Source of the DNA: Eubacteriaceae bacterium CHKCI004
Lineage (GTDB): Bacteria > Bacillota > Clostridia > Lachnospirales > Lachnospiraceae
Direction: 5' to 3'
Assembly (NCBI GenBank): GCA_900016875.1
Contig: FCNR01000021.1
Location: forward strand, 51,293-115,292
Length of the DNA stretch: 64,000 bases
Shown here: positions 1-39,455 of the stretch, piece after piece
How positions within the stretch are numbered: position 1 is the first letter of the stretch
Layout: each line of letters opens with the position of its first letter
Made by a program: the position numbers and the translations under genes
Notes under the pieces: model-generated
What the model saw: only the letters and a program-made list of their open reading frames with translations
What the model was told of the DNA's origin: nothing
Database searches by the model: none

Positions 1-429
1 CCCGGAAGTATTGGCACTTGGAGCGGCGATCACGCGCCGGCTCTCCCGAATCAATGCTCTTGCGCCGGGATGAGAAGGCATGCGCACTGCCACCGTCTTA
101 AGCCCCCCTGTGGTACCGTCCGGAACCGTTTCTTTTTTATTGAGAATCACGGTCAGCGGGCCGGGCCAGAAAGCCTCCATAATCTTCCTTGCCTGATTCG
201 GCACATTTTCCGCCACCAGATCTACCTGCTCCATGTCCGCTATGTGAACAATGAGCGGATTATCAGAAGGCCGTCCTTTCGCCGCATAAATCTTTGCTGC
301 CGCTTCACTGTTCATGGCGTCCGCACCAAGACCGTATACCGTCTCGGTAGGAAACGCCACCAGCCCCCCGGCACGAATAATCTCACCCGCCTCCTTCAAA
401 GCATCCATCTTCACCAATTTTGTTTTCAT
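1..429 (-). CDS. ywlC: L-threonylcarbamoyladenylate synthase (Sua5/YrdC/YwlC family), 3' end outside window
   Basis: This enzyme makes threonylcarbamoyl-AMP from threonine, bicarbonate and ATP in the cytoplasm, the first step of the t6A37 modification of ANN-decoding tRNAs. The first 143 codons are visible and the gene runs off the left edge. Family signatures seen are PTETVYGLG (residues 27-35), KGRPSDNPLIVH (51-62), WPGPLTVIL, VAVRMPSHP and the terminal APSANTSG. The ATG at 429 has an AGAGGTGA ribosome binding site just upstream. It is transcribed away from cwlD, from its own promoter. Whether it is the long form with a C-terminal Sua5 domain cannot be seen here. Confidence 0.93.
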   Translation of the reverse strand, partial: MKTKLVKMDALKEAGEIIRAGGLVAFPTETVYGLGADAMNSEAAAKIYAAKGRPSDNPLIVHIADMEQVDLVAENVPNQARKIMEAFWPGPLTVILNKKETVPDGTTGGLKTVAVRMPSHPGARALIRESRRVIAAPSANTSG

Positions 430-470
430 TGCAGTCACCTCTGTCATTCAGCCCGTCTTTGGCTTTTGCT

Positions 471-499: not shown

Positions 500-615
500 A
501 AAACATGTCTTATTTTTTGTTACAGTTGTCATATTATTAACGTTTTTGTATTGCTGCTTCTTCTTTGCTTTGTAGAAGCATACTAATAATCGTACCTCAT
601 TTCAGGATTGTTTTT

Positions 616-795
616 ATGATAAATTTCTATTTTCACAAACTTTCTCCCCGAAATCTCTCTCTTTTCTTTCTTTTTCTGTTTTTGTCCGCCCTTGTTTTTG
701 CTGACATGGCCAGAACTTCCCCGATTTTTAAAACCTCCGGCATTTTCACCGTCGTCCTGGACCCGGGGCACGGCGGGTGTCAGATGTGCGGATGA
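616..795 (+). CDS. cwlD: cwlD 5' segment, interrupted by a recombinase element
   Basis: This is the N-terminal part of the spore-cortex N-acetylmuramoyl-L-alanine amidase. It starts at ATG 616 (AGGA eight bases upstream), has a hydrophobic membrane-anchor segment at about residues 13-31, and then the beta-strand plus zinc-ligand motif VVLDPGHGG. Directly after GHGG (position 777) the reading frame enters foreign sequence, adds five residues (CQMCG) and stops at 793-795, giving a 59-residue stub. The remainder of the gene lies in frame at 4771-5310. An upstream CATACTA (579-585) resembles the -10 element of sporulation sigma factors, but no convincing -35 was found. Alone this fragment lacks the other zinc ligands and cannot be an active amidase. 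Confidence 0.88.
   Translation: MINFYFHKLSPRNLSLFFLFLFLSALVFADMARTSPIFKTSGIFTVVLDPGHGGCQMCG
769..795 (+). repeat. Left attachment junction (attL): core plus right attP arm
   Basis: The 9-bp core CACGGCGGG (769-777) is shared with the right junction. The 24 bp at 772-795 are the inverted counterpart of 4737-4760, with 20 of 24 positions identical. Cores of this size with imperfect dyad arms fit large serine recombinase sites. Confidence 0.8.
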
Positions 796-896
796 AGCAC
801 GCGGGACATGTTCCCGGCGCCCTGTTCATATAAGACAGGCACTCCGCGTATATTTGTTACAGAAACAGAAATATCGCTCGATCAGGAGGGCCCTTT

Positions 897-1109
897 ATGC
901 CACAAAACACCCCCCGAAACATTTCTCCATACAATGCTTCATTCAATCTGCCATCCGAAAAGTCAGAAAAATACTCATTGCCCGGCAGGATAAAACAGTC
1001 TCCCTTCATCACTGTGGAGAGGGATTTTCTCTCCTCCATCACAGAAGATGAAGCGCTTATCCAGATTATCCGGGCGCATCTGCGGCAGTTATCCGCCGCT
1101 CCTCCATAA
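897..1109 (+). CDS. Small element-encoded protein, function unknown (70 aa)
   Basis: I do not recognise this protein. It is supported by a strong ribosome binding site (AGGAGG at 884-889, seven bases before the ATG) and by its position as the first gene of the cwlD element, upstream of the recombinase. It is soluble, with a Pro/Ser-rich N-terminal half and a more helical C-terminal half (about residues 44-65, TEDEALIQIIRAHLRQL). Small proteins next to serine recombinases are sometimes recombination directionality factors, so that role is possible here, but it rests on position alone. No cysteine cluster or membrane segment is visible. Confidence 0.55.
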   Translation: MPQNTPRNISPYNASFNLPSEKSEKYSLPGRIKQSPFITVERDFLSSITEDEALIQIIRAHLRQLSAAPP

Positions 1110-1182
1110 AAATCCCTGCATCTGCTGTAAGCTTATATCACTTGTACCCTTTAACACTATAAAAGAAAAAGAAGGTAAAAAT

Positions 1183-2817
1183 ATGCCGGATCTTTTTTAT
1201 ACCGCCGCTTATATCCGCCTTTCCCGTGAGGACGGCGACCGGGAAGAAAGCGACAGCGTCGCCAATCAGAAAAAGCTTCTCACCGGTTTTATTGAGAAAA
1301 AAGAGGAGCTTCTTCTATATAATATGTATATCGACGACGGATATTCGGGCGTCACTTTTCAGCGTCCCGCCTTTCGGAGGATGCTCGCAGACATTGAAAA
1401 CAAAAAAATCACCTGTGTCATTGTCAAAGATTTATCTCGTTTTGGCAGAGACTACATCGAGAGCGGGCGATATCTTGAACGATATTTTCCAGAGAAAGGA
1501 ATTCGTTTCATCTCCGTCTCCGACCATATAGACAGCCTGCGGCAGCCCTATGATATGCTTCTTCCCATTAAAAACATTTTTAACGAGCAATACGCGCGCG
1601 ATATATCCGGCAAGGTTCATTCCGCCCTGCAGACCAAACGGCAGTGCGGAGAGTTTATCGGAGCCTTTGCCAGCTATGGCTACCGGAAATCGCCCACAGA
1701 TAAAAACAAGCTGATCATCGACGAGTACGCCGCCTCCGTCGTCCGGCGGATCTTCTCTCTCTATCTGCAGGGTTTCGGCAAACAGCAGATTGCCCGGCTT
1801 TTAAATAGCGAGGGCGTCCTCTGTCCTTCCGCCTATAAACGGGCGTCAGGACTCCGCTATGCCAATCCCGGAGCCGGCTGCGGTTCCCTCTGGTCTTATT
1901 CTACCATTAATCACATCTTACATAAAGAAATATATGTGGGAAATATGGTACAGGGCACGAGAGAACAAAAGCTGCGGGGCAGACAGCAAATGCTCGGGCG
2001 GGAACGCTGGATCGTAGTCAAGGGAACTCACGAGGCCATCATCGATGAAGAAACGTGGCGGCGAACTCAGAAACTCCTGAAAAGCAACGTCCGCTCCCCG
2101 GCCGGAGCGTACGTTCCGGCACGTCATCTCTTTGCAGGTCTCCTCTTTTGCGGCGGCTGCGGGCGTCCCATGGTAAAAACAATCTGGCGGCACGCCGACG
2201 GCAGTCCGGAATATTCTTTCACCTGCGGTACCTGCAAGCGGCATGGGAGACATTTCTGCACCCCGCATACCATTCCCGCCCGGGCGTTGGAACAGGCGGT
2301 CCTTAACGATCTGAACCTTCTTCTGTCCCGCTGCGAAAAGCTGTCCGGGCTGGTATGGCAACAGGCGGAACAGTTTTTTGACCAGCCGGGCATCGAATCC
2401 GAGCTGCAGCTCATGGAAAATGAACGGAAAGCGGCGCGGGACATTTTTCTTACTTCTTATGAAGATTACAAATCAGGACTACTCTCCCGGGAAGAATTTC
2501 TGGTCTGCCGGGAAAAATACCGCCGGAAGGAACAATTCTGCCGTTCTAAACAGGAAGAACTCACAAACCGACGTGCTGATTTTTGGAAAAAAGTCCGGCA
2601 ATCTCCTTTATTAAATGAAAAACCGGCAGCCAGACCAGTCTCCTACCTGGACCGGGCATTGCTGTCAGCGTTGATTGCTAAAATTACTGTTTACGAAAAC
2701 CGCCGCATTCATATCTGTTACAATTTCCCGGGAGGCGCTTCTTTTTTCCCCGGGCAGTATTTTGTAAAACGGACTGATGACATACATATCTTAAGTAAAT
2801 CGTCCGAATTACAATAA
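1183..2817 (+). CDS. Large serine recombinase (resolvase/invertase family integrase)
   Basis: This 544-residue site-specific recombinase probably integrates and excises the surrounding element. The N-terminal resolvase domain (about 5-150) contains YIRLSRED with catalytic Ser14 and the conserved VKDLSRFGRD segment (81-90). A recombinase domain follows (about 160-280), then a zinc ribbon with Cys323/326 and Cys348/351 (plus Cys359), and a charged coiled-coil stretch (about 405-465), the usual large serine recombinase order. The ATG at 1183 is chosen because GAAGG lies just upstream and the protein then begins next to the catalytic domain. The open frame extends back to 1048 but those residues look non-coding. 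Its att sites can be read at both ends of the element. Confidence 0.92.
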   Translation: MPDLFYTAAYIRLSREDGDREESDSVANQKKLLTGFIEKKEELLLYNMYIDDGYSGVTFQRPAFRRMLADIENKKITCVIVKDLSRFGRDYIESGRYLERYFPEKGIRFISVSDHIDSLRQPYDMLLPIKNIFNEQYARDISGKVHSALQTKRQCGEFIGAFASYGYRKSPTDKNKLIIDEYAASVVRRIFSLYLQGFGKQQIARLLNSEGVLCPSAYKRASGLRYANPGAGCGSLWSYSTINHILHKEIYVGNMVQGTREQKLRGRQQMLGRERWIVVKGTHEAIIDEETWRRTQKLLKSNVRSPAGAYVPARHLFAGLLFCGGCGRPMVKTIWRHADGSPEYSFTCGTCKRHGRHFCTPHTIPARALEQAVLNDLNLLLSRCEKLSGLVWQQAEQFFDQPGIESELQLMENERKAARDIFLTSYEDYKSGLLSREEFLVCREKYRRKEQFCRSKQEELTNRRADFWKKVRQSPLLNEKPAARPVSYLDRALLSALIAKITVYENRRIHICYNFPGGASFFPGQYFVKRTDDIHILSKSSELQ

Positions 2818-2899
2818 CAAATTAAGTGTATTTTTTCTCACCACCATAATATTGTTTATTATTGCAGAATTTTTTAAAAAAATACTATATTTTTTTTAC

Positions 2900-2928
2900 T
2901 TGTGCAAAAATTGGAACTGTGCTAGACT
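2900..2928 (+). promoter_or_regulatory. Probable promoter of amt-glnB
   Basis: TTGTGC (2900-2905) and TAGACT (2923-2928) are separated by 17 bp, upstream of a terminator-like hairpin and the amt gene. The -10 is imperfect, so an activator or another sigma factor is possible. Confidence 0.45.
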
Positions 2929-2940
2929 GCATTACAAGAC

Positions 2941-2982
2941 AAAGGCGTTTACAGTATTACTCATACTGCAGACGCCTTTTTT
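2941..2982 (+). terminator. Terminator-like hairpin in the amt leader (possible attenuator)
   Basis: AAAGGCGT (2941-2948) pairs with ACGCCTTT (2972-2979), and an inner stem pairs CAGTAT with ATACTG around a TACTC loop. The outer stem runs into a run of T. It lies between the likely promoter and the amt start (3048), so it could terminate transcription conditionally. It could instead terminate readthrough from the recombinase gene if the true amt promoter lies further downstream. Confidence 0.6.
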
Positions 2983-3047
2983 CATGAAAACAGTCTGAAA
3001 CAATCATTTAAGCCGGCATTTTGAAGAAGGAAAGGATGAGATAAGAT

Positions 3048-4289
3048 ATGAATTCAGGAGATACAGCTTTTGTAATGATCTGTGCAGCTTTTGTATTTTT
3101 AATGACTCCGGGACTGGCGTTTTTCTACGGCGGTCTGGTACGGAGAAAAAATGTTGTAAATACCATGATGGCCTGCGTTGCTATTATGGGACTTTCCATT
3201 GTGATGTGGGCTTTATTTGGCTATTCCCTGGCCTTTGGCGGAAATCACGGCGGAATCATCGGTGATCTGCGATGGTTCGGATTAAATGGCGTTGGAATGG
3301 ATGTGGGTCCATATTCCGATTCTTTGCCGCACCTGGTTTTTTGTATGTTCCAGATGATGTTCGCCATGATTACCCCGGCCCTCATTACGGGATCTCTGGT
3401 GGGACGTATGAAATTTAAAGCGTTATTTTTCTTTATCGCCCTCTGGTCCATCATTGTTTATTATCCAATGGCTCACATGGTATGGGGCTCCGGCGGATTT
3501 CTTGCATCCATCGGTTCTGTAGACTTTGCGGGCGGTAATGTTGTACATATCAGCTCCGGTGTCAGCGCCCTTGTCCTCGCTATTATTCTTGGCAGAAGAA
3601 GAGGGTACGAACACACCACCTACCGTATTCACAATATTCCATTTGTAGCCCTTGGCGCTTCTCTCCTCTGGTTCGGATGGTTCGGCTTCAACGCAGGAAG
3701 CGCGTTAAAAGCAGACGGATTGGCTGCACACGCATTTATGACCTCCGCCATCTCCGCAGCTGCCGCGCTTCTTGCCTGGATGGCCATTGACGTCATCAAG
3801 ACCGGCAAACCTACGCTGGTCGGCGCTTCCACCGGCCTTGTCGTCGGTCTCGTCGCCATCACGCCGGGAGCCGGATTTGTTCCAATCTGGGCTTCATTTA
3901 TCATCGGTCTTCTGGTAAGTCCGATCTGCTACTTTGGCGTAGCTCTTGTGAAAAAGAAACTGAAAATTGATGACGCGCTCGACGCCTTTGGATGTCACGG
4001 CATCGGCGGTATCTGGGGCGGCATCGCGACAGGTCTGTTCGGTCAGTCCTCCATCAACAGCGTCGCCCAGTGGGACGGTCTGGTATTCGGTGATTTTCAT
4101 CTCTTTGCCGCCCAGCTCATCGGTATCGTCGTCACCATCGCTGTGGCTATTGTTGGAACGCTCATCTGCGTGGCTGTTGTAAAAATATTTACTCCTCTCC
4201 GCGTCACAGTAAAAGAGGAACAGATTGGACTGGATATCACGCAGCATGGAGAAAGCGCATATCCAAGCTTTAACGGATTAGATCAGTAA
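3048..4289 (+). CDS. amtB: Ammonium transporter (Amt/MEP family)
   Basis: This 413-residue polytopic membrane protein conducts ammonium/ammonia across the cytoplasmic membrane. It has about 11 hydrophobic segments, the N-terminal PGLAFFYGGLVRRKN signature, and the two pore-histidine contexts GGNVVHISSGVSALVLA and FGCHGIGGIWGGIATG. Length and layout are normal for Amt. GGAAAGGATGAG precedes the ATG. The PII gene follows within 15 bp, the standard transporter-PII pair in which PII blocks the pore when nitrogen is plentiful. The unusual feature is location: the pair is enclosed in the recombinase element that splits cwlD. Confidence 0.96.
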   Translation: MNSGDTAFVMICAAFVFLMTPGLAFFYGGLVRRKNVVNTMMACVAIMGLSIVMWALFGYSLAFGGNHGGIIGDLRWFGLNGVGMDVGPYSDSLPHLVFCMFQMMFAMITPALITGSLVGRMKFKALFFFIALWSIIVYYPMAHMVWGSGGFLASIGSVDFAGGNVVHISSGVSALVLAIILGRRRGYEHTTYRIHNIPFVALGASLLWFGWFGFNAGSALKADGLAAHAFMTSAISAAAALLAWMAIDVIKTGKPTLVGASTGLVVGLVAITPGAGFVPIWASFIIGLLVSPICYFGVALVKKKLKIDDALDAFGCHGIGGIWGGIATGLFGQSSINSVAQWDGLVFGDFHLFAAQLIGIVVTIAVAIVGTLICVAVVKIFTPLRVTVKEEQIGLDITQHGESAYPSFNGLDQ

Positions 4290-4302
4290 GGTGGGAAGAA
4301 AA

Positions 4303-4659
4303 ATGATGTTTAAAATTGAAGCATATATAAGAGAAGAAAAATTTGAAGATGTAAAAAAAGCGCTGGATGACCTCAATGTCAACGGACTGACCGTATATCA
4401 GGTCATGGGATGCGGCATCCAGAGAGGATATCAGGAAATCGTGCGGGGCATGGAAGTGGATATGCAGATGCAGCCAAAGGTAAAATTCGAGATTGCTGTT
4501 TCCTCGGAGGAATGGGCGGAAAAAACCGTGGACGCTATCCAGAAAGCAGCCTACACCGGAGAGATCGGAGATGGCAAAATCTTCACCTATGAAATCCGCT
4601 CCGCATTAAAAATCCGTACGAAGGAAACCGGTTACGACGCTATTCAGGAATCAGAATAA
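4303..4659 (+). CDS. glnB: PII family nitrogen regulatory protein
   Basis: This 118-residue homotrimeric signal protein senses 2-oxoglutarate and ATP/ADP and regulates the adjacent transporter. The T-loop region (GYQEIVRG...PKVKFEIAV), the B-loop (TGEIGDGKIF) and the C-terminal IRTKETGYDAI are recognisable. The residue corresponding to uridylylated Tyr51 of enteric PII (LYRG) is Val here (IVRG), so uridylylation at that site is not possible. Start ATG 4303 is preferred because AGGTGGGAAG is directly upstream; an in-frame GTG at 4291 lies only one base past the amt stop. It is cotranscribed with amt and followed by a terminator. Confidence 0.93.
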   Translation: MMFKIEAYIREEKFEDVKKALDDLNVNGLTVYQVMGCGIQRGYQEIVRGMEVDMQMQPKVKFEIAVSSEEWAEKTVDAIQKAAYTGEIGDGKIFTYEIRSALKIRTKETGYDAIQESE

Positions 4660-4672
4660 CTACTTCAGGGAT

Positions 4673-4699
4673 GGGAGGCGATTCAGCCTCCCCCTTTTA
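4673..4699 (+). terminator. Rho-independent terminator after glnB
   Basis: GGGAGGC (4673-4679) pairs with GCCTCCC (4686-4692) around a six-base loop, followed by CCTTTT. It closes the element's transcription unit about 40 bp before the right attachment arm, so readthrough into the cwlD 3' half should be limited. Confidence 0.85.
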
Positions 4700-4736
4700 T
4701 ATGTTGACGCGTCAGGGCAAGGCATATTCCGGATGA

Positions 4737-4770
4737 TCATCCGCGCTTCCGGCACCCGCCCCACGGCGGG
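4737..4770 (+). repeat. Right attachment junction (attR): left attP arm plus core
   Basis: The 24 bp at 4737-4760 are the inverted, 20/24 identical counterpart of 772-795. They are followed by CCAC and the shared core 4762-4770. In an excised circle the two arms would flank CCAC to form a 52-bp dyad whose central dinucleotide is the CA at 4762-4763. Confidence 0.8.
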
Positions 4771-5310
4771 GAAGACCCGGGAAAGGTCAGTGCTTCCGGC
4801 ATTCAGGAAAAGGACATTAATCTGTCCATTGCCCTCAAATGCCGAACCATTCTGGAACAAAACGGCATTCACGTGGTCATGACAAGAGAAACGGACTGCA
4901 GCCTTGAGGATGACGCCGTCTCCAATAAAAAAGCCAGCGATCTGAAAAACCGAAAATCCATCATCACGGAATCCTCCCCCAATTGTGCGGTGAGTATCCA
5001 TCAGAACAGTTTTCCTGACAGTACTCAGCACGGCGCGCAGGTCTTCTACCAGACTTCCAGCGAAGAAAGTCAGCGTCTCGCCTCTCTTATACAGGCACAG
5101 ACTCTGTATCTGACAGGAGAGGAAAATAAGAGAGAAATCAAATCCAATTCCGATTACTACCTGCTGCGGGACAACACTGTTCCCACAGTAATCGCAGAGA
5201 TCTGCTTTCTCTCCAATCCCTCTGAAGCCGAGATGATTGCGGATGAGAACATGCAGGAAAAGGCTGCTTTCGCTATTGCCATGGGGATTATGCAATATTT
5301 GTATTCCTGA
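4771..5310 (+). CDS. cwlD: cwlD 3' segment: catalytic remainder of the spore-cortex amidase
   Basis: This is the rest of the amidase_3 domain. It continues exactly from the GHGG codons with EDPGKVSASGIQEKD, then VVMTRETD, NCAVSIHQNS (second zinc histidine), HGAQVFYQ and VIAEICFLSN (catalytic glutamate). With the 5' segment (616-777) it encodes 233 residues with an N-terminal anchor. CwlD removes peptide side chains so that muramic delta-lactam can form in spore cortex, which germination lytic enzymes need. In the present arrangement this half has no start codon of its own before an internal ATG at 4873, with no good ribosome binding site, so it should be silent unless the element excises. Confidence 0.87.
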   Translation, partial: EDPGKVSASGIQEKDINLSIALKCRTILEQNGIHVVMTRETDCSLEDDAVSNKKASDLKNRKSIITESSPNCAVSIHQNSFPDSTQHGAQVFYQTSSEESQRLASLIQAQTLYLTGEENKREIKSNSDYYLLRDNTVPTVIAEICFLSNPSEAEMIADENMQEKAAFAIAMGIMQYLYS

Positions 5311-5459
5311 TGCATCTCGAGATCAGTTCATGTCTGCTTCTGGCTTATGATAACCGGCTTCGTATATCATATTACTATATTTTTTATTGTTTTACAATAA
5401 ATTTTGTGAATTCCTTGTGAAAACATGCCCGTTTACAGATATGTGGGTGATTTTAACAC

Positions 5460-5488
5460 TTTACAGTTTTCAGAATAATGTTTATACT
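5460..5488 (+). promoter_or_regulatory. Sigma-A-type promoter for mecA
   Basis: TTTACA (5460-5465) and TATACT (5483-5488) are separated by 17 bp. The rest of the 273-bp gap before mecA shows no other feature I can support. Confidence 0.7.
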
Positions 5489-5583
5489 ATACACACCACA
5501 TATTCTTGTCCCATATTTTCCATGGGACAGAACTCTCCATATATAATATCCTGATATGACTTTATCAAAAAGGAAGTGAATTC

Positions 5584-6429
5584 ATGAAATTAGAAAAATT
5601 GAATGATAATCAGATACGATGTACATTAAATAAATCTGACTTAGATAAACGGGAGCTGCGGCTTTCCGAACTGGCTTATGGTTCTGCCAAAGCCAGAGCA
5701 CTGTTTCGTGATATGATTCAGCAGGCTTCCATTGAGCTTGGCTTTGAGGCGGATAATATTCCTCTCATGATTGAGGCCATTCCGATTTCCAATGAATGCC
5801 TGGTACTTGTGGTCACCAAAGTGGAGGATCCGGATGAACTGGATACCCGATTCTCCAGATTTTCCAGTCCATTTGATGAGGATGATTTTGACGAAGATTA
5901 TTCTTCCGATGTTTTCGATGAAGATCTTGCTGACACTGATTCCTACGAAGAGGAATCTGTTTCTTTCAGCAGCAGTTCGGACGAAGATCTTCCTTTCGAA
6001 ACTTCATCCGATAAAGACGATGGAAGGCAGGCCGCCGATGATGCGCTCGATTTGATCGCTCCGTTCACTCAGGCTATTGCCCAGGCAAAAAAGGAAGTTC
6101 TGAGAAAGAAACAGGAGGCATCCAGGAAGAAACATAACCTTCAGATCTACACCTTTTCTGATCTGGATACCATCACACATCTGAGTGCGTTCCTCACCCC
6201 ATTTTACACCGGTGAGAGTCGTCTGTACAAAGACGCCGCCAGCCAGACCTACTACCTGTTTCTGATAAAAAACCAGTGTGAACATGACATTTTTAAAAGA
6301 GCCTGTACCATTGCTTCTGATTATGGTACTGTTCTGAACACGTCATACTCTACACTTTCCTATTTTGAGGAACATTTTCAGTCTGTATTCCGGGAAAATG
6401 CCCTGGAAACACTGAACCAGCTTAATTAA
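5584..6429 (+). CDS. mecA: Adaptor protein MecA
   Basis: MecA delivers substrate proteins to the ClpC unfoldase of the ClpCP protease. The 281-residue product starts MKLEKLNDNQIRCTL, typical of the family, with the N-terminal substrate-binding domain at about 1-85. A long acidic Asp/Glu/Ser linker follows (about 86-145), then the C-terminal ClpC-binding domain (about 180-275, including LYKDAASQTYYLFL). It is somewhat longer than the B. subtilis protein, mainly because of the acidic linker. AGGAAGTGAATTC precedes the ATG. It is a single gene with its own promoter and terminator. No competence genes are nearby, so its clients are unknown here. Confidence 0.9.
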   Translation: MKLEKLNDNQIRCTLNKSDLDKRELRLSELAYGSAKARALFRDMIQQASIELGFEADNIPLMIEAIPISNECLVLVVTKVEDPDELDTRFSRFSSPFDEDDFDEDYSSDVFDEDLADTDSYEEESVSFSSSSDEDLPFETSSDKDDGRQAADDALDLIAPFTQAIAQAKKEVLRKKQEASRKKHNLQIYTFSDLDTITHLSAFLTPFYTGESRLYKDAASQTYYLFLIKNQCEHDIFKRACTIASDYGTVLNTSYSTLSYFEEHFQSVFRENALETLNQLN

Positions 6430-6460
6430 ATATACATCGACCAAATAAATATTACGATAC

Positions 6461-6499
6461 AAAAAGCACAGCTTTGTTTTTTTCGAAGCTGTGCTTTTC
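6461..6499. terminator. Terminator hairpin after mecA
   Basis: AAAAGCACAGCTT pairs with AAGCTGTGCTTTT across a short T-rich loop. The T run and the A run allow termination from either side. Confidence 0.8.
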
Positions 6500-6532
6500 T
6501 GGTATTTACGACGTAAAAACGGTATTTCTGAC

Positions 6533-6592
6533 ATAAAAAGAAGGCGCAGCCGGGCGATATCTGAAGCATCGTGACATCTTTCCGGCTGCACC
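6533..6592 (-). terminator. Terminator of the DUF1858 gene
   Basis: On the minus strand GGTGCAGCCGG (6582-6592) pairs with CCGGCTGCGCC (6543-6553), followed by TTCTTTTT. The loop is about 28 nt. Confidence 0.65.
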
Positions 6593-6613
6593 GTTCATTG
6601 CTGTATCTGCTTT

Positions 6614-6829
6614 TTATTTATTTTTATTTGCCAGATAGTCATTAATGCGGCCAAGCACCTGGTCTGCGTCCATACCGTGCACCATGCATGCTTCTTCCAG
6701 ACTCTCCATAGCGGAAGACGGGCATCCAACACAGTGCATTCCTGCTGCCATTAAAATAGCGGCAATCCCCATATCCATCTGGAGCATCTCTCCGATTAAT
6801 GTATTCTTTGTAACAACCTGAGCTGCCAT
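6614..6829 (-). CDS. DUF1858 domain-containing protein (hybrid-cluster-associated type)
   Basis: This small 71-residue cytoplasmic protein has the DUF1858 core, including GMHCVGCPSSAMESLEEAC, whose CxxC pair is typical of the family. Members are often annotated as hybrid-cluster-protein-associated redox disulfide proteins, and related domains occur in ScdA-like iron-sulfur repair proteins. The reaction is not established. AGGAGGAAT precedes the ATG at 6829. It is transcribed alone from a clear promoter (6887-6915). A redox or metal-cluster role is an inference from the motif only. Confidence 0.8.
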   Translation of the reverse strand: MAAQVVTKNTLIGEMLQMDMGIAAILMAAGMHCVGCPSSAMESLEEACMVHGMDADQVLGRINDYLANKNK

Positions 6830-6886
6830 GATCTATTCCTCCTGTATTACTTCAAAAATCCTGTTTGTTTATCGGGTACTTTACTC

Positions 6887-6915
6887 AGTATAATACACGG
6901 AATCAAAAAATTCAA
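6887..6915 (-). promoter_or_regulatory. Promoter of the DUF1858 gene
   Basis: On the minus strand TTGAAT (6910-6915) and TATACT (6887-6892) are spaced by 17 bp, just after the ribH stop. Confidence 0.7.
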
Positions 6916-6921
6916 TAGTTA

Positions 6922-7395
6922 TTATTTTTCAATCTCCTTGATGAGGTTGATCATTTCAATAGCGCCAAGCGCGCAATCATACCCCTTGTTGCCCGCCTTT
7001 GTGCCGGCGCGCTCAATGGCCTGCTCGATGTTTTCCGTGGTGACGATACCGAATAATACCGGAATGCCGGACTGAAGTCCCACCTGCGCCACGCCTTTGG
7101 AAACCTCGCTGCACACATAATCATAGTGGCTGGTGGCGCCGCGGATAACCGTACCGAGAGCGATGACCGCGTCATATTTTCCTGAATTCGCCATCTTTTC
7201 ACAGATCAGCGGAATCTCGAATGCTCCCGGTACCCACGCCACATCAATATTTTCTTCTTTCATGCCGTGGCGGACAAGGCCGTCAATGGCGCCGCTCAAA
7301 AGCTTGGAAACGATAAACTCATTGAATCTCGCGCACACGATTCCCACTCTCTCTTCTCCGCCTACTACTTTTCCTTCAAATACGTTTACTCTCAT
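6922..7395 (-). CDS. ribH: 6,7-dimethyl-8-ribityllumazine synthase
   Basis: RibH condenses 5-amino-6-ribitylamino-uracil with dihydroxybutanone phosphate, the penultimate step of riboflavin synthesis. The 157-residue length is standard. Motifs are [12 protein letters not shown] near the N-terminus, WVPGAFEIP (substrate phosphate site) and [21 protein letters not shown], which includes the catalytic histidine. AGGAGGAAATATC precedes the ATG. It is the last gene of the ribD-ribE-ribBA-ribH operon, 35 bp after ribBA, and so should be under control of the FMN riboswitch at 10771-10896. Confidence 0.96.
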
Positions 7396-7430
7396 GATAT
7401 TTCCTCCTGTTCTTATCCATGAAATGTTTT

Positions 7431-8636
7431 TTAATATTTTGTGTAATGTCCCATCTTCTCCTGCTTGGTTTTCAGGTAGAAGAAGTCATCTTCATTTGCC
7501 TCAATGATGATTGGCACCCGCTCCACGATTTCTATGCCGTACCCGGACAGTCCCACTACCTTTGCCGGATTATTAGTCATGAGACGAAGTTTCTTAACGC
7601 CCAGGTCTGCGAGAATCTGTGCACCGATGCCATAGTCCCGCAGGTCCTCCGGAAATCCCAGAGCAATATTGGCCTCCACTGTATCCATACCCTGATCCTG
7701 CAGCTCATAAGCTTTTAGCTTGTTTATCAATCCAATACCCCGGCCTTCCTGTCTCATATAAAGAAGTACTCCGCGTCCTTCTTTCTCGATCATCCTCATA
7801 GCAGCCGCGTACTGCTGACCGCAGTCGCAGCGTCTCGAACCGAGCGCGTCCCCGGTCAGACATTCTGAGTGTACCCGGCAGAGCACCGGCCCGCCGTCGT
7901 CCACATTTCCTTTCACGATGGCCACATGATGTTCCCCGTTTAATTTGTTCACATAACCAAAAATCCGAAAATGACCGTAATGAGTCGGAAAATCCGCCTC
8001 AGCCTCACAGCTTACAAAACTTTCAGTCCGCCGGCGATACTGAATCATATCCGCTATGGTTATGATTTTGAGGTCATATTTCTCCGCAAACTTCAGCAGC
8101 TTTGGTACTTTTGCCACCGCCCCTTCTTCATCAAGGATTCCACAGCGCAATCCCACCGGCCTCAATCCTGCCATCTGTGCCAGATCCACCGCCGCTTCTG
8201 TAAAACCTGTACGTTTCAGCACGCCTCCCTGCAGCGCCACCTTAGGCACTATGGTCCCCGGCCGTCTGAACTCCTCCGGTCCCGCCGTCTCCGCCGCTGC
8301 GGTCATCACAGTCAGAGAACGATCCGCCGCCGAAGCGCCGCTCGCCGCATGTACACTGTCAATGGTCACTGTAGAAACAGAACGGGATAACTCCCGGTTC
8401 TCCCAAATCTGTTCCTCCACACCGATTTTCCTTGCCACATCTTCAGAAACCGGCATGGTCATGATTCCTTTTCCATGACTTAACATAAAATTCACTGCCT
8501 CTGGCGTGGCAAACTGGCCTGCCACCACAAGCGCACCGTCATTTTCCACATCACCGTCATCCACAACGATGACCATTTTGCCCTGTTTAAAATCTTCCAG
8601 AGCCTCCTCTATAGTATTGCATCGAAATTCATTCAT
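7431..8636 (-). CDS. ribBA: RibBA-type protein: intact GTP cyclohydrolase II, degenerate DHBP synthase domain
   Basis: A 401-residue fusion. The C-terminal half (about 205-395) is a complete GTP cyclohydrolase II: zinc cysteines in HSECLTGD and [15 protein letters not shown], and [10 protein letters not shown]. It opens GTP to start riboflavin synthesis. The N-terminal half has the RibB fold but several hallmark residues differ. The usual DDEDRENEGD is [16 protein letters not shown] is GTIVPK, and the RxGHTEAAVDL histidine is Phe ([11 protein letters not shown]). These positions bind metal or substrate in characterised DHBP synthases, so this half has probably lost that activity. It sits 35 bp upstream of ribH and downstream of ribE in the operon, with GGAGAATG upstream of the ATG. 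Confidence 0.92.
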
Positions 8637-10718: not shown

Positions 10719-10770
10719 TATCACCGCCATATAAATACACGTAAATAAAATACACGCATACAAATATAAA

Positions 10771-10896
10771 CATCTTCTACCATCCGGACTATACCGTCGG
10801 CTCCGGAATCTCACCGGAATCCTGCCTTTCGGCTCGCGGGCTCGCACTTCTCTGTGATTACCGCCGGTGGGGACTTACACCCCGCCCTGAAGACCG
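10771..10896 (-). promoter_or_regulatory. FMN riboswitch (RFN element) of the rib operon
   Basis: On the minus strand the conserved RFN parts are present in order: CAGGGCGGGGTGTAAGTCCC, CCACCGGCGGTAATC, GAGCCCGCGAGCC, GATTCCGGTGAGATTCCGG and AGCCGACGGTATAGTCCGG. It senses FMN and controls ribDEBAH by premature termination through the hairpin at 10673-10718. Confidence 0.97.
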
Positions 10897-10914
10897 TTTT
10901 TCATTTCTTTAGTT

Positions 10915-39276: not shown

Positions 39277-39306
39277 AACAAAAAAACATAATCAACTATC
39301 GTTTCT

Positions 39307-39438
39307 TTCATCCGGACTATACCGTTGGTATGGGATTCTAACCCATTCAACCTCAGCGCGCATACGCACGCTTTTGGCTCGTGGACTTAAGGTCTTGGCC
39401 TGTCACCACCAGTGAGGAATCTCACCTCGCCCTGAAAC
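39307..39438 (-). promoter_or_regulatory. FMN riboswitch (RFN element) of ribU
   Basis: On the minus strand the RFN parts are CAGGGCGAGGTGAGATTCCT, CACTGGTGGTGACAGGCC, GTCCACGAGCC, ATGGGTTAGAATCCCATACC and CAACGGTATAGTCCGGATG. It controls import of riboflavin in step with the rib operon switch at 10771-10896. Confidence 0.96.
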
Positions 39439-39455
39439 AGATTTTTCTGATTCCT

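Follow-up and report, generated by a model that had tools for sequence, protein, structure and literature searches.

The window analysed here is a stretch of 64,000 nucleotides from Eubacteriaceae bacterium CHKCI004 (contig FCNR01000021.1, positions 51,293 to 115,292). It contains a cwlD-like gene, which is split within the codons of its His-Gly-Gly (HGG) zinc-site motif by an element of 3,993 bp encoding a large serine recombinase. The 5' part of the gene (616..777, + strand) comprises 54 codons, has a hydrophobic N-terminus and reads ..VVLDPGHGG up to position 777. The continuation EDPGKVSASG.. starts at 4771 and opens a 3' part of 179 codons plus stop (4771..5310, + strand). A core sequence, CACGGCGGG, is present in two exact copies spaced by 3,993 bp, which represent the left (769..777) and the right attachment site (4762..4770, both + strand), the latter with the HGG codons. 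Joining at one core copy gives 54 + 179 = 233 in-frame codons. An initial annotation of this DNA had described the split with these coordinates and frames, a 9-bp core identical at 769-777 and 4762-4770 and a join of 233 codons, and all of this was borne out.

Eight intact cwlD genes from the genus were combined into a profile, which scores 411.1 bits with the joined protein, 360.9 bits with the 3' part and 31.6 bits with the 5' part. The junction falls between the adjacent residues 68 and 69 of the intact protein L010 (74.8% identity, 234 columns), and the alignment to L007 crosses it over 200 residues with no gap. Reading through from the 5' part, a stop is met after CQMCG (793-795), five codons past HGG. 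In the 3' part an in-frame ATG, GTG or TTG is lacking between the preceding stop, which ends at 4707, and the HGG codons. Therefore neither half alone should yield an enzyme, and independent expression of the 3' part was rejected for the window. An assembly artefact was also rejected, as the same arrangement recurs in other genomes, among them that of an isolate, Eubacterium sp. An11. Four more species of the genus, and other genera as well, have the gene split at these very codons, which is more than chance would give.

Organization of the element

In the family of such elements, the core is flanked on both sides by arms of the TTGCGCAA type. The left arm (778..795, + strand) is TTGCGCAA-like in relatives and diverged in the window, and the right arm occupies 4737..4761 (+ strand). 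Between them, all on the + strand, lie a small open reading frame (ORF) with a VEREFL-type motif (orf70, 897..1109), the recombinase gene (1183..2817), the ammonium transporter gene amtB (3048..4289) and the P-II protein gene glnK (4303..4659). Terminator-like hairpins with T runs follow the recombinase (2941..2983, fold z-score -6.4) and glnK (4673..4692, z-score -2.9). The first of them is absent from the list of our consensus terminator scan and was scored by its fold z-score. The recombinase had been recognized in the initial annotation, which omitted amtB, glnK and orf70.

The recombinase, whose start codon was picked from an alignment, has 544 amino acids with Resolvase, Recombinase and zinc ribbon domains. 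The serine of YIRLSREDGD, which we take to be the catalytic residue, is invariant in all 15 aligned recombinases. Its best solved relative is YokA of SPbeta (91.3 bits), presumably the protein known as SprA, with TnpX close behind (88.2 bits).

In 75 of 81 loci the recombinase is immediately preceded by a relative of orf70. The family shares a core of about 30 residues (Y.VEREFL....EELL.RII..H), and the relative in L131, from genome G008, shares its reading frame with the cwlD 5' part. Searches against Pfam and NCBIfam gave no match for orf70 of the window. Its place and company suggest a recombination directionality factor like CD1234 or GirX.

AmtB is the only PF00909 match in the window genome (G000), and the sole, element-borne one also in the related genomes G001, G002 and G023. 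Two relatives with an intact cwlD, G003 and G004, have amt-glnK elsewhere in the genome (86% identity). A cwlD element outside the four amt-bearing species (L108) carries amt-glnK with 89% identity and is thus nearer than the copy of G004 from the same genus, which suggests that element and cargo have travelled together. The amt leader contains a stable hairpin, and amt-glnK looks like a separate unit between two hairpins.

Among the long ORFs of the element (recombinase, amt, glnK and orf70) there is none for phage structure or replication, a result obtained without a PHROGs scan. A phage origin was dropped, since the recombinase is at most 38.2% identical to those of phages (15 records listed of 23) and at most 43% identical in 68 loci of viral contigs.

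Assignment of the split gene

The best solved relative of the 3' part is a germination-specific amidase (7rag_B, 140.6 bits, the next one 67.3 bits), which we assume to be CwlD of C. difficile with GerS. The window gene scores 189.1 bits with TIGR02883 and does not reach the cut-off of 221.55 bits. None of the 24 genomes of the genus has a gene that does, not even those with an intact cwlD. The gene is therefore called cwlD-like here, and its orthology rests on the best match, on its presence as a single copy and on its occurrence together with SpoIVA. By these sequence criteria it is taken as the predicted ortholog of C. difficile CwlD. Of the five Amidase_3 genes in the genome only the split one is cwlD-like, the next reaching 92.9 bits with TIGR02883. 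A second intact cwlD, which the initial annotation had named as evidence against its proposal, was thus searched for among these five genes and not found. The survey of 299 genomes from the bacterial family of the host agrees with a single copy: at an E-value of 1e-45 the cwlD match is single in 189 of 190 genomes. H1, E16, H80 and E146, presumably the zinc and catalytic residues, are invariant in the 18 aligned of 31 cwlD-type 3' parts. An unsplit cwlD-type gene with a short N-terminus and the zinc-site motif HGD instead of HGG was seen in G060 (L277, about 4288-4296).

Distribution in the genus

In the comparison of 24 genomes of the genus, cwlD is intact in eight (G003, G004, G006, G007, G009, G010, G012, G014) and split in five (G000, G001, G002, G023, G008); the other eleven have no cwlD match of that grade. 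The intact genes of all eight lie between the same flanking genes as the split one. These are, on the left, a gene cut by the window start (1..447, - strand), for which we assume the name TsaC/Sua5-like, and, on the right, a MecA-like gene (5584..6429, + strand). Both the intact gene and the junction, which the initial annotation had suggested to look for in relatives, are thus present, the junction in the four further species (G001, L066; G002, L067; G023, L089 and L068; G008, L088) as well as in other genera.

The same element with the same place and cargo is found in G001, G002 and G023, although in G023 the gene halves are on two contigs. Across these four amt-bearing split species of the Anaerobutyricum group, amt is 91-96% and the recombinase 63-69% identical. 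The G023 recombinase (L089:1495-3648, 717 amino acids) contains long in-frame repeat-like insertions, while its N-terminal part aligns normally. G008 has a related element without amt in cwlD, and here the contig breaks off within the 3' part. The 3' parts of the other four split species have no stop and no frame shift, and keep the invariant residues.

SpoIVA is found in 14 of the 24 genomes, namely the 13 with cwlD plus G011. All five split species have SpoIVA matches, which in G008 are fragments at contig ends, and also PdaA-like genes, whose matches are below the family cut-off in all 24 genomes. The spore-former marker set is present.

A family of elements in amidase genes

A single scan of species genomes yielded 455 relatives, and the 80 best loci among them were retrieved. 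In 55 of the 80 loci the 3' part of an Amidase_3 gene lies on the same strand downstream of the recombinase, 17 bp to 7.3 kb away, and these 3' parts begin at the His-Gly-Gly zinc-site codons. The initial annotation had seen a single element in cwlD. It was right about the gene, yet the element is no one-off but a member of a mobile family at HGG codons, here with amt-glnK.

Including the window there are 56 targets, 31 of cwlD type and 25 others, according to profiles built on these same loci. A check of ten representatives with TIGR02883 from NCBIfam gave 159.7-202.7 bits for four cwlD-type and 67.3-79.6 bits for six other targets. Three targets (L105, L106, L120) score higher on the other profile, whose training set contained two of them, and were assigned to the cwlD type by a rule of over 110 bits together with the 162.4 bits of L106 to TIGR02883. 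The 3' parts of 18 of the 25 other targets are 242-370 amino acids long (L165 and L166 included). A SPOR domain is above the cut-off in the three long ones scanned (L095, L099, L115), and not in the three shorter ones scanned. The solved SPOR match of L095 is a sporulation-specific amidase, 1x60, which we take to be CwlC of B. subtilis. The idea that this second target class represents phage lysins was dropped after the domain and structure matches and the co-occurrence with SpoIVA. An insertion into the common L001-type amidase was likewise rejected: no target falls within the range of 21 other amidases checked (47-118 bits with the second profile), in a comparison in which the number of such genes open to insertion was not counted. 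L113, with 145 bits to the second profile, belongs to neither amidase type. A start codon before HGG is lacking in 36 of the 56 targets and present in 20.

The right-hand core copy encodes HGG in all 56 targets, whereas the left-hand copy does not in 6 of 26 (Fisher p 6.6e-4). The 26 left copies, searched with the pattern CA[CT]G, come from 22 loci with both ends, the window, L139, L146 and L169; two left ends without a right end (L094, L160) are outside this count. As the right copy is the one of the gene and the left copy that of the element, the contrast fits selection on the rebuilt gene. Alternatively, the left copy may never have encoded HGG in the first place.

A tree of 79 recombinases, calculated with a quick method and leaving out L094 and L165, shows at least 18 switches of target class as labelled by us. 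Nearly identical recombinases are found in Lachnospiraceae/Hominisplanchenecus (L112, L119) and Erysipelotrichaceae/Thomasclavelia (L113, L120). One metagenome-assembled genome contains identical recombinases before two amidase genes, one cwlD-type and one other (L128, L129). The window, L092 and L093 form a clade of their own on a long branch. Where both ends were found (22 loci) the elements measure 1.8 to 9.2 kb, and the cargo of the eight elements examined includes transporter, chemoreceptor, HD-domain and ATPase-nuclease genes. Amt is rare, being found among the 80 fetched loci only in L092, L093 and L108, plus a fragment in L094. A cwlD element of L158 (6747-8785, reverse strand) carries a gene for a D-Ala-D-Ala-ligase-like protein and, next to it, one for a 2-hydroxyacid dehydrogenase.

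Among 82 loci with more distant recombinases the VEREFL ORF occurs in three (42-44% identical). L262, one of those without it, has a weak amidase match of 20.6 bits at a distance of 1.6 kb. Apart from this match the amidase site was met only with recombinases close to that of the window. Two further loci should be mentioned. In G128 about 6.6 kb interrupt a cwlD gene at the HGG codons (L275, about 1282-7866), and no recombinase like that of the window was detected in them (tblastn, 1e-5). The same genome has a recombinase-bearing element in the other amidase type (L082), and the L275 element is perhaps excised in trans. In L276 (reverse strand) a different serine recombinase, 32% identical, precedes a cwlD 3' part which starts at HGG near position 5314 of the reverse complement; no 5' part is found before the contig end.

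Relation to sporulation

In the survey of 299 genomes SpoIVA is present in 194, and 185 of the 190 genomes with a cwlD match are SpoIVA-positive. The profile of the other targets, which was built from 16 of the 25 and some of whose matches cover the amidase part only, matches in 157 genomes, of which 153 have SpoIVA and the remaining four have cwlD. Hosts of a close recombinase (a match of at least 418 bits, a cut chosen by ourselves) are SpoIVA-positive in 20 of 20 cases, versus 194 of 299 overall (p 1.5e-4).

In C. difficile cwlD is a mother-cell gene under sigma-E (PMC3789822). The initial annotation had proposed that the split serves as a control, by which the cortex amidase is made only during sporulation. 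Such a control is not needed for a gene which is already sporulation-specific. The split may rather be tolerated for this reason than required.

Upstream of the 5' part a sigma-E-like -10 sequence, GCATACTAATA (578..588, + strand), is a tentative promoter; it is kept in four split species, and a visual comparison was made with GCATATACTG, which precedes spoIVA. Between 778 and 1183 the consensus scan found no terminator-like site on the + strand. Also upstream of cwlD lies TGTTACA (518-524), which is kept in three of four split species and resembles the reverse of the SpoIIID motif TGTAACAAT that is quoted for CD1234.

Comparison with known intervening elements

Published elements in sporulation genes concern sigK, spoVFB, spoVR, gerE, spsM and yabG (PMC5595907, PMC10747680, PMC4191935, PMC5025042). 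An element in cwlD or another amidase gene was not found among the matches listed by a full-text literature search, which covered few subscription papers. Within this range the statement of the initial annotation that no case in cwlD is described holds. PMC10083194 surveys thousands of such recombinases and sites; its main text does not contain the word "amidase", and members of the amidase-docking family may be included in its tables.

Among the closest parallels is skin in sigK of B. subtilis and C. difficile, which also lies inside a mother-cell sporulation gene and has its own serine recombinase. Its excision rebuilds sigK, and in C. difficile it has the directionality factor CD1234, encoded by a sigma-E gene (PMC5025042). 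The cwlD element differs in its gene, in having four genes compared with 19 in skinCd and in carrying amt-glnK. Furthermore, no phage genes were seen in its long ORFs (without a PHROGs scan), its excision is predicted only and its site consists of codons common to many paralogous genes. Like gin in gerE of B. cereus ATCC10987, it is non-phage, has a serine recombinase and a shared sequence of 9 bp, and the helper factor GirX of gin would correspond to the candidate orf70; gin, however, is 28.6 kb long with three recombinases, compared with a single one in 4 kb here, and resides in gerE (PMC5595907). The elements vfbin (spoVFB), vrin (spoVR), SPbeta (spsM) and yin (yabG) are also located in sporulation genes. 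The first three are excised in sporulation, whereby in the case of SPbeta spsM is rebuilt (PMC4191935, and for the others PMC5025042, PMC10747680). In contrast to the cwlD element all four are prophages or prophage-like, and none of them is described in an amidase gene.

Similarity also exists to recombinases of TnpX/TndX-type transposons (TnpX catalytic domain 2mhc, 88.2 bits; a plasmid TndX, 34.7% identical), but only close relatives of the window recombinase were found together with the amidase site. We assume that the corresponding elements are Tn4451 and Tn5397. The fdxN and nifD elements of heterocyst-forming cyanobacteria likewise interrupt a gene needed only in the differentiated cell (PMC4874684), although in another phylum and another process. 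XisF is a distant relative of the window recombinase, which misses the XisF cut-off of NCBIfam (85.3 versus 375 bits).

The element shares several characteristics of the skin type: it interrupts a sporulation gene whose frame is restored once it is taken out, it encodes a site-specific recombinase, it has a short direct repeat at its ends and relatives have an intact gene at the same place. We read it as a sporulation intervening element of the skin type in a gene not known to be interrupted in this way.

Proposed mechanism and alternatives

We consider it probable that the element in the HGG codons is removed precisely and in frame by its own serine recombinase, with sporulating mother cells as the likely place; this excision is a prediction. 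The cwlD 5' part, orf70 and the recombinase would be transcribed from the sporulation promoter of cwlD itself, and the onset of cwlD expression would thereby set off excision. The recombinase would join the two core copies, with the orf70 protein assisting as directionality factor. This would rebuild cwlD and release a circle carrying amt-glnK. As the mother cell dies, the spore would retain element and cargo. The family as a whole would use conserved HGG codons as docking sites, in amidase genes presumed silent in growth. We lean slightly towards the broader view that small mobile elements of spore-forming Lachnospiraceae and Erysipelotrichia land in the zinc-site codons of amidases, park growth-phase cargo in sporulation-only genes and are shed in the doomed mother cell, which would amount to a germ-line/soma split with reusable docking sites.

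Several observations weigh against excision during sporulation. A sigma-E promoter for the cwlD 5' part could not be established, because no clear -35 is seen beside the -10 sequence. The recombinase gene itself contains a weak terminator-like site (1735-1750), from a consensus scan whose total of 8 sites is near chance (mean 5.9). Several kb separate the 5' part and the recombinase in L104, and a general coupling of the recombinase to the target promoter was abandoned, as several kb precede the recombinase in some relatives. No adjoining amidase is found in 25 of the 80 family members, which were examined for arms only; in four of them (L094, L111, L130, L159) less than 800 bp of contig are left. 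The circle junction was looked for once, in viral contigs, and gave no match. Furthermore, the trees do not agree. The tree of the flanking genes unites the four amt-bearing split species (support 81/94, not starred), the cwlD 3'-part tree has two pairs which are not united (window and G002, 82/84; G001 and G023, 80/83), and in the recombinase tree the window pairs with G001 (L092) and not with G002. A single descent of the split in these four species is thus not firmly shown, and since the three trees disagree on it we rate excision in sporulation slightly lower. The selection data include two more such points. The ratio of dN to that of MecA is 0.85-1.01 for the split 3' parts (six pairs) versus 0.45-0.78 for intact genes (28 pairs), and this faster change fits a looser constraint or other causes. 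The 5' part, with dN/dS of 0.079-0.403 (51 codons), is less constrained than the 3' part with 0.058-0.204 (six species pairs, 179 codons each, gap-free). For the recombinase dN/dS is 0.155-0.244 (three pairs, G023 being omitted because of its insertions) and for amt 0.027-0.047. All these ratios come from our own Nei-Gojobori script and are rough, with dS near 1 in many pairs and no formal test. Finally, the 3' fragment of G008 shows two stops in the profile match near the contig end and a proline at the column of the catalytic histidine, which is either an error or decay.

A different view is that a mobile integrative element uses the HGG codons and is rarely excised regardless of sporulation, the sporulation-only amidase genes being just harmless sites. 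The near-identical recombinases in different amidase genes of different bacterial families, the identical pair in one genome, the many changes of target class and the variable cargo speak for this view. On the other hand, the same element occupies the same place with the same cargo in four species of the Anaerobutyricum group. In addition, a gene which is never rebuilt and a useless recombinase should decay, so that dN/dS well below 1 in the recombinase and both gene halves counts against it. We regard this explanation as unlikely. The faster change relative to MecA, the missing start codon of the HGG-containing 3' part and the stops of G008 would also agree with a permanent inactivation of cwlD, whose halves would then be remnants in bacteria forming spores without a muramic-lactam cortex or no spores at all. 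This is highly improbable in our view: the five split species retain SpoIVA and, below the cut-off, PdaA-like genes, the 3' parts of four of the five are free of stops and frame shifts with their invariant residues kept, and their dN/dS is far below 1. Hardly any credence is given to a real switch under another signal such as the nitrogen status, for which cwlD would merely be the seat. Such a signal is favoured by the cargo, as no other ammonium transporter was found in the genome and glnK adjoins amt, and by the stable hairpin of the amt leader, but amt-glnK looks self-contained between its two hairpins, and the scarcity of amt among the fetched loci does not fit.

If excision during sporulation is true, programmed DNA removal would be commoner than the published cases and would extend to spore-forming gut families. 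A simple rule would apply, namely to dock at codons which a catalytic site cannot lose, in genes which growth can spare. The apparent breakage of cwlD in these genomes would be explained, and the family would be a source of compact recombinases with predictable sites.

Further observations

Two FMN riboswitches are found in the window (10768-10898 and 39296-39443, - strand). Downstream of the first one, at 6.9-9.3 kb and on its strand, are ORFs which by eye are riboflavin-gene-like.

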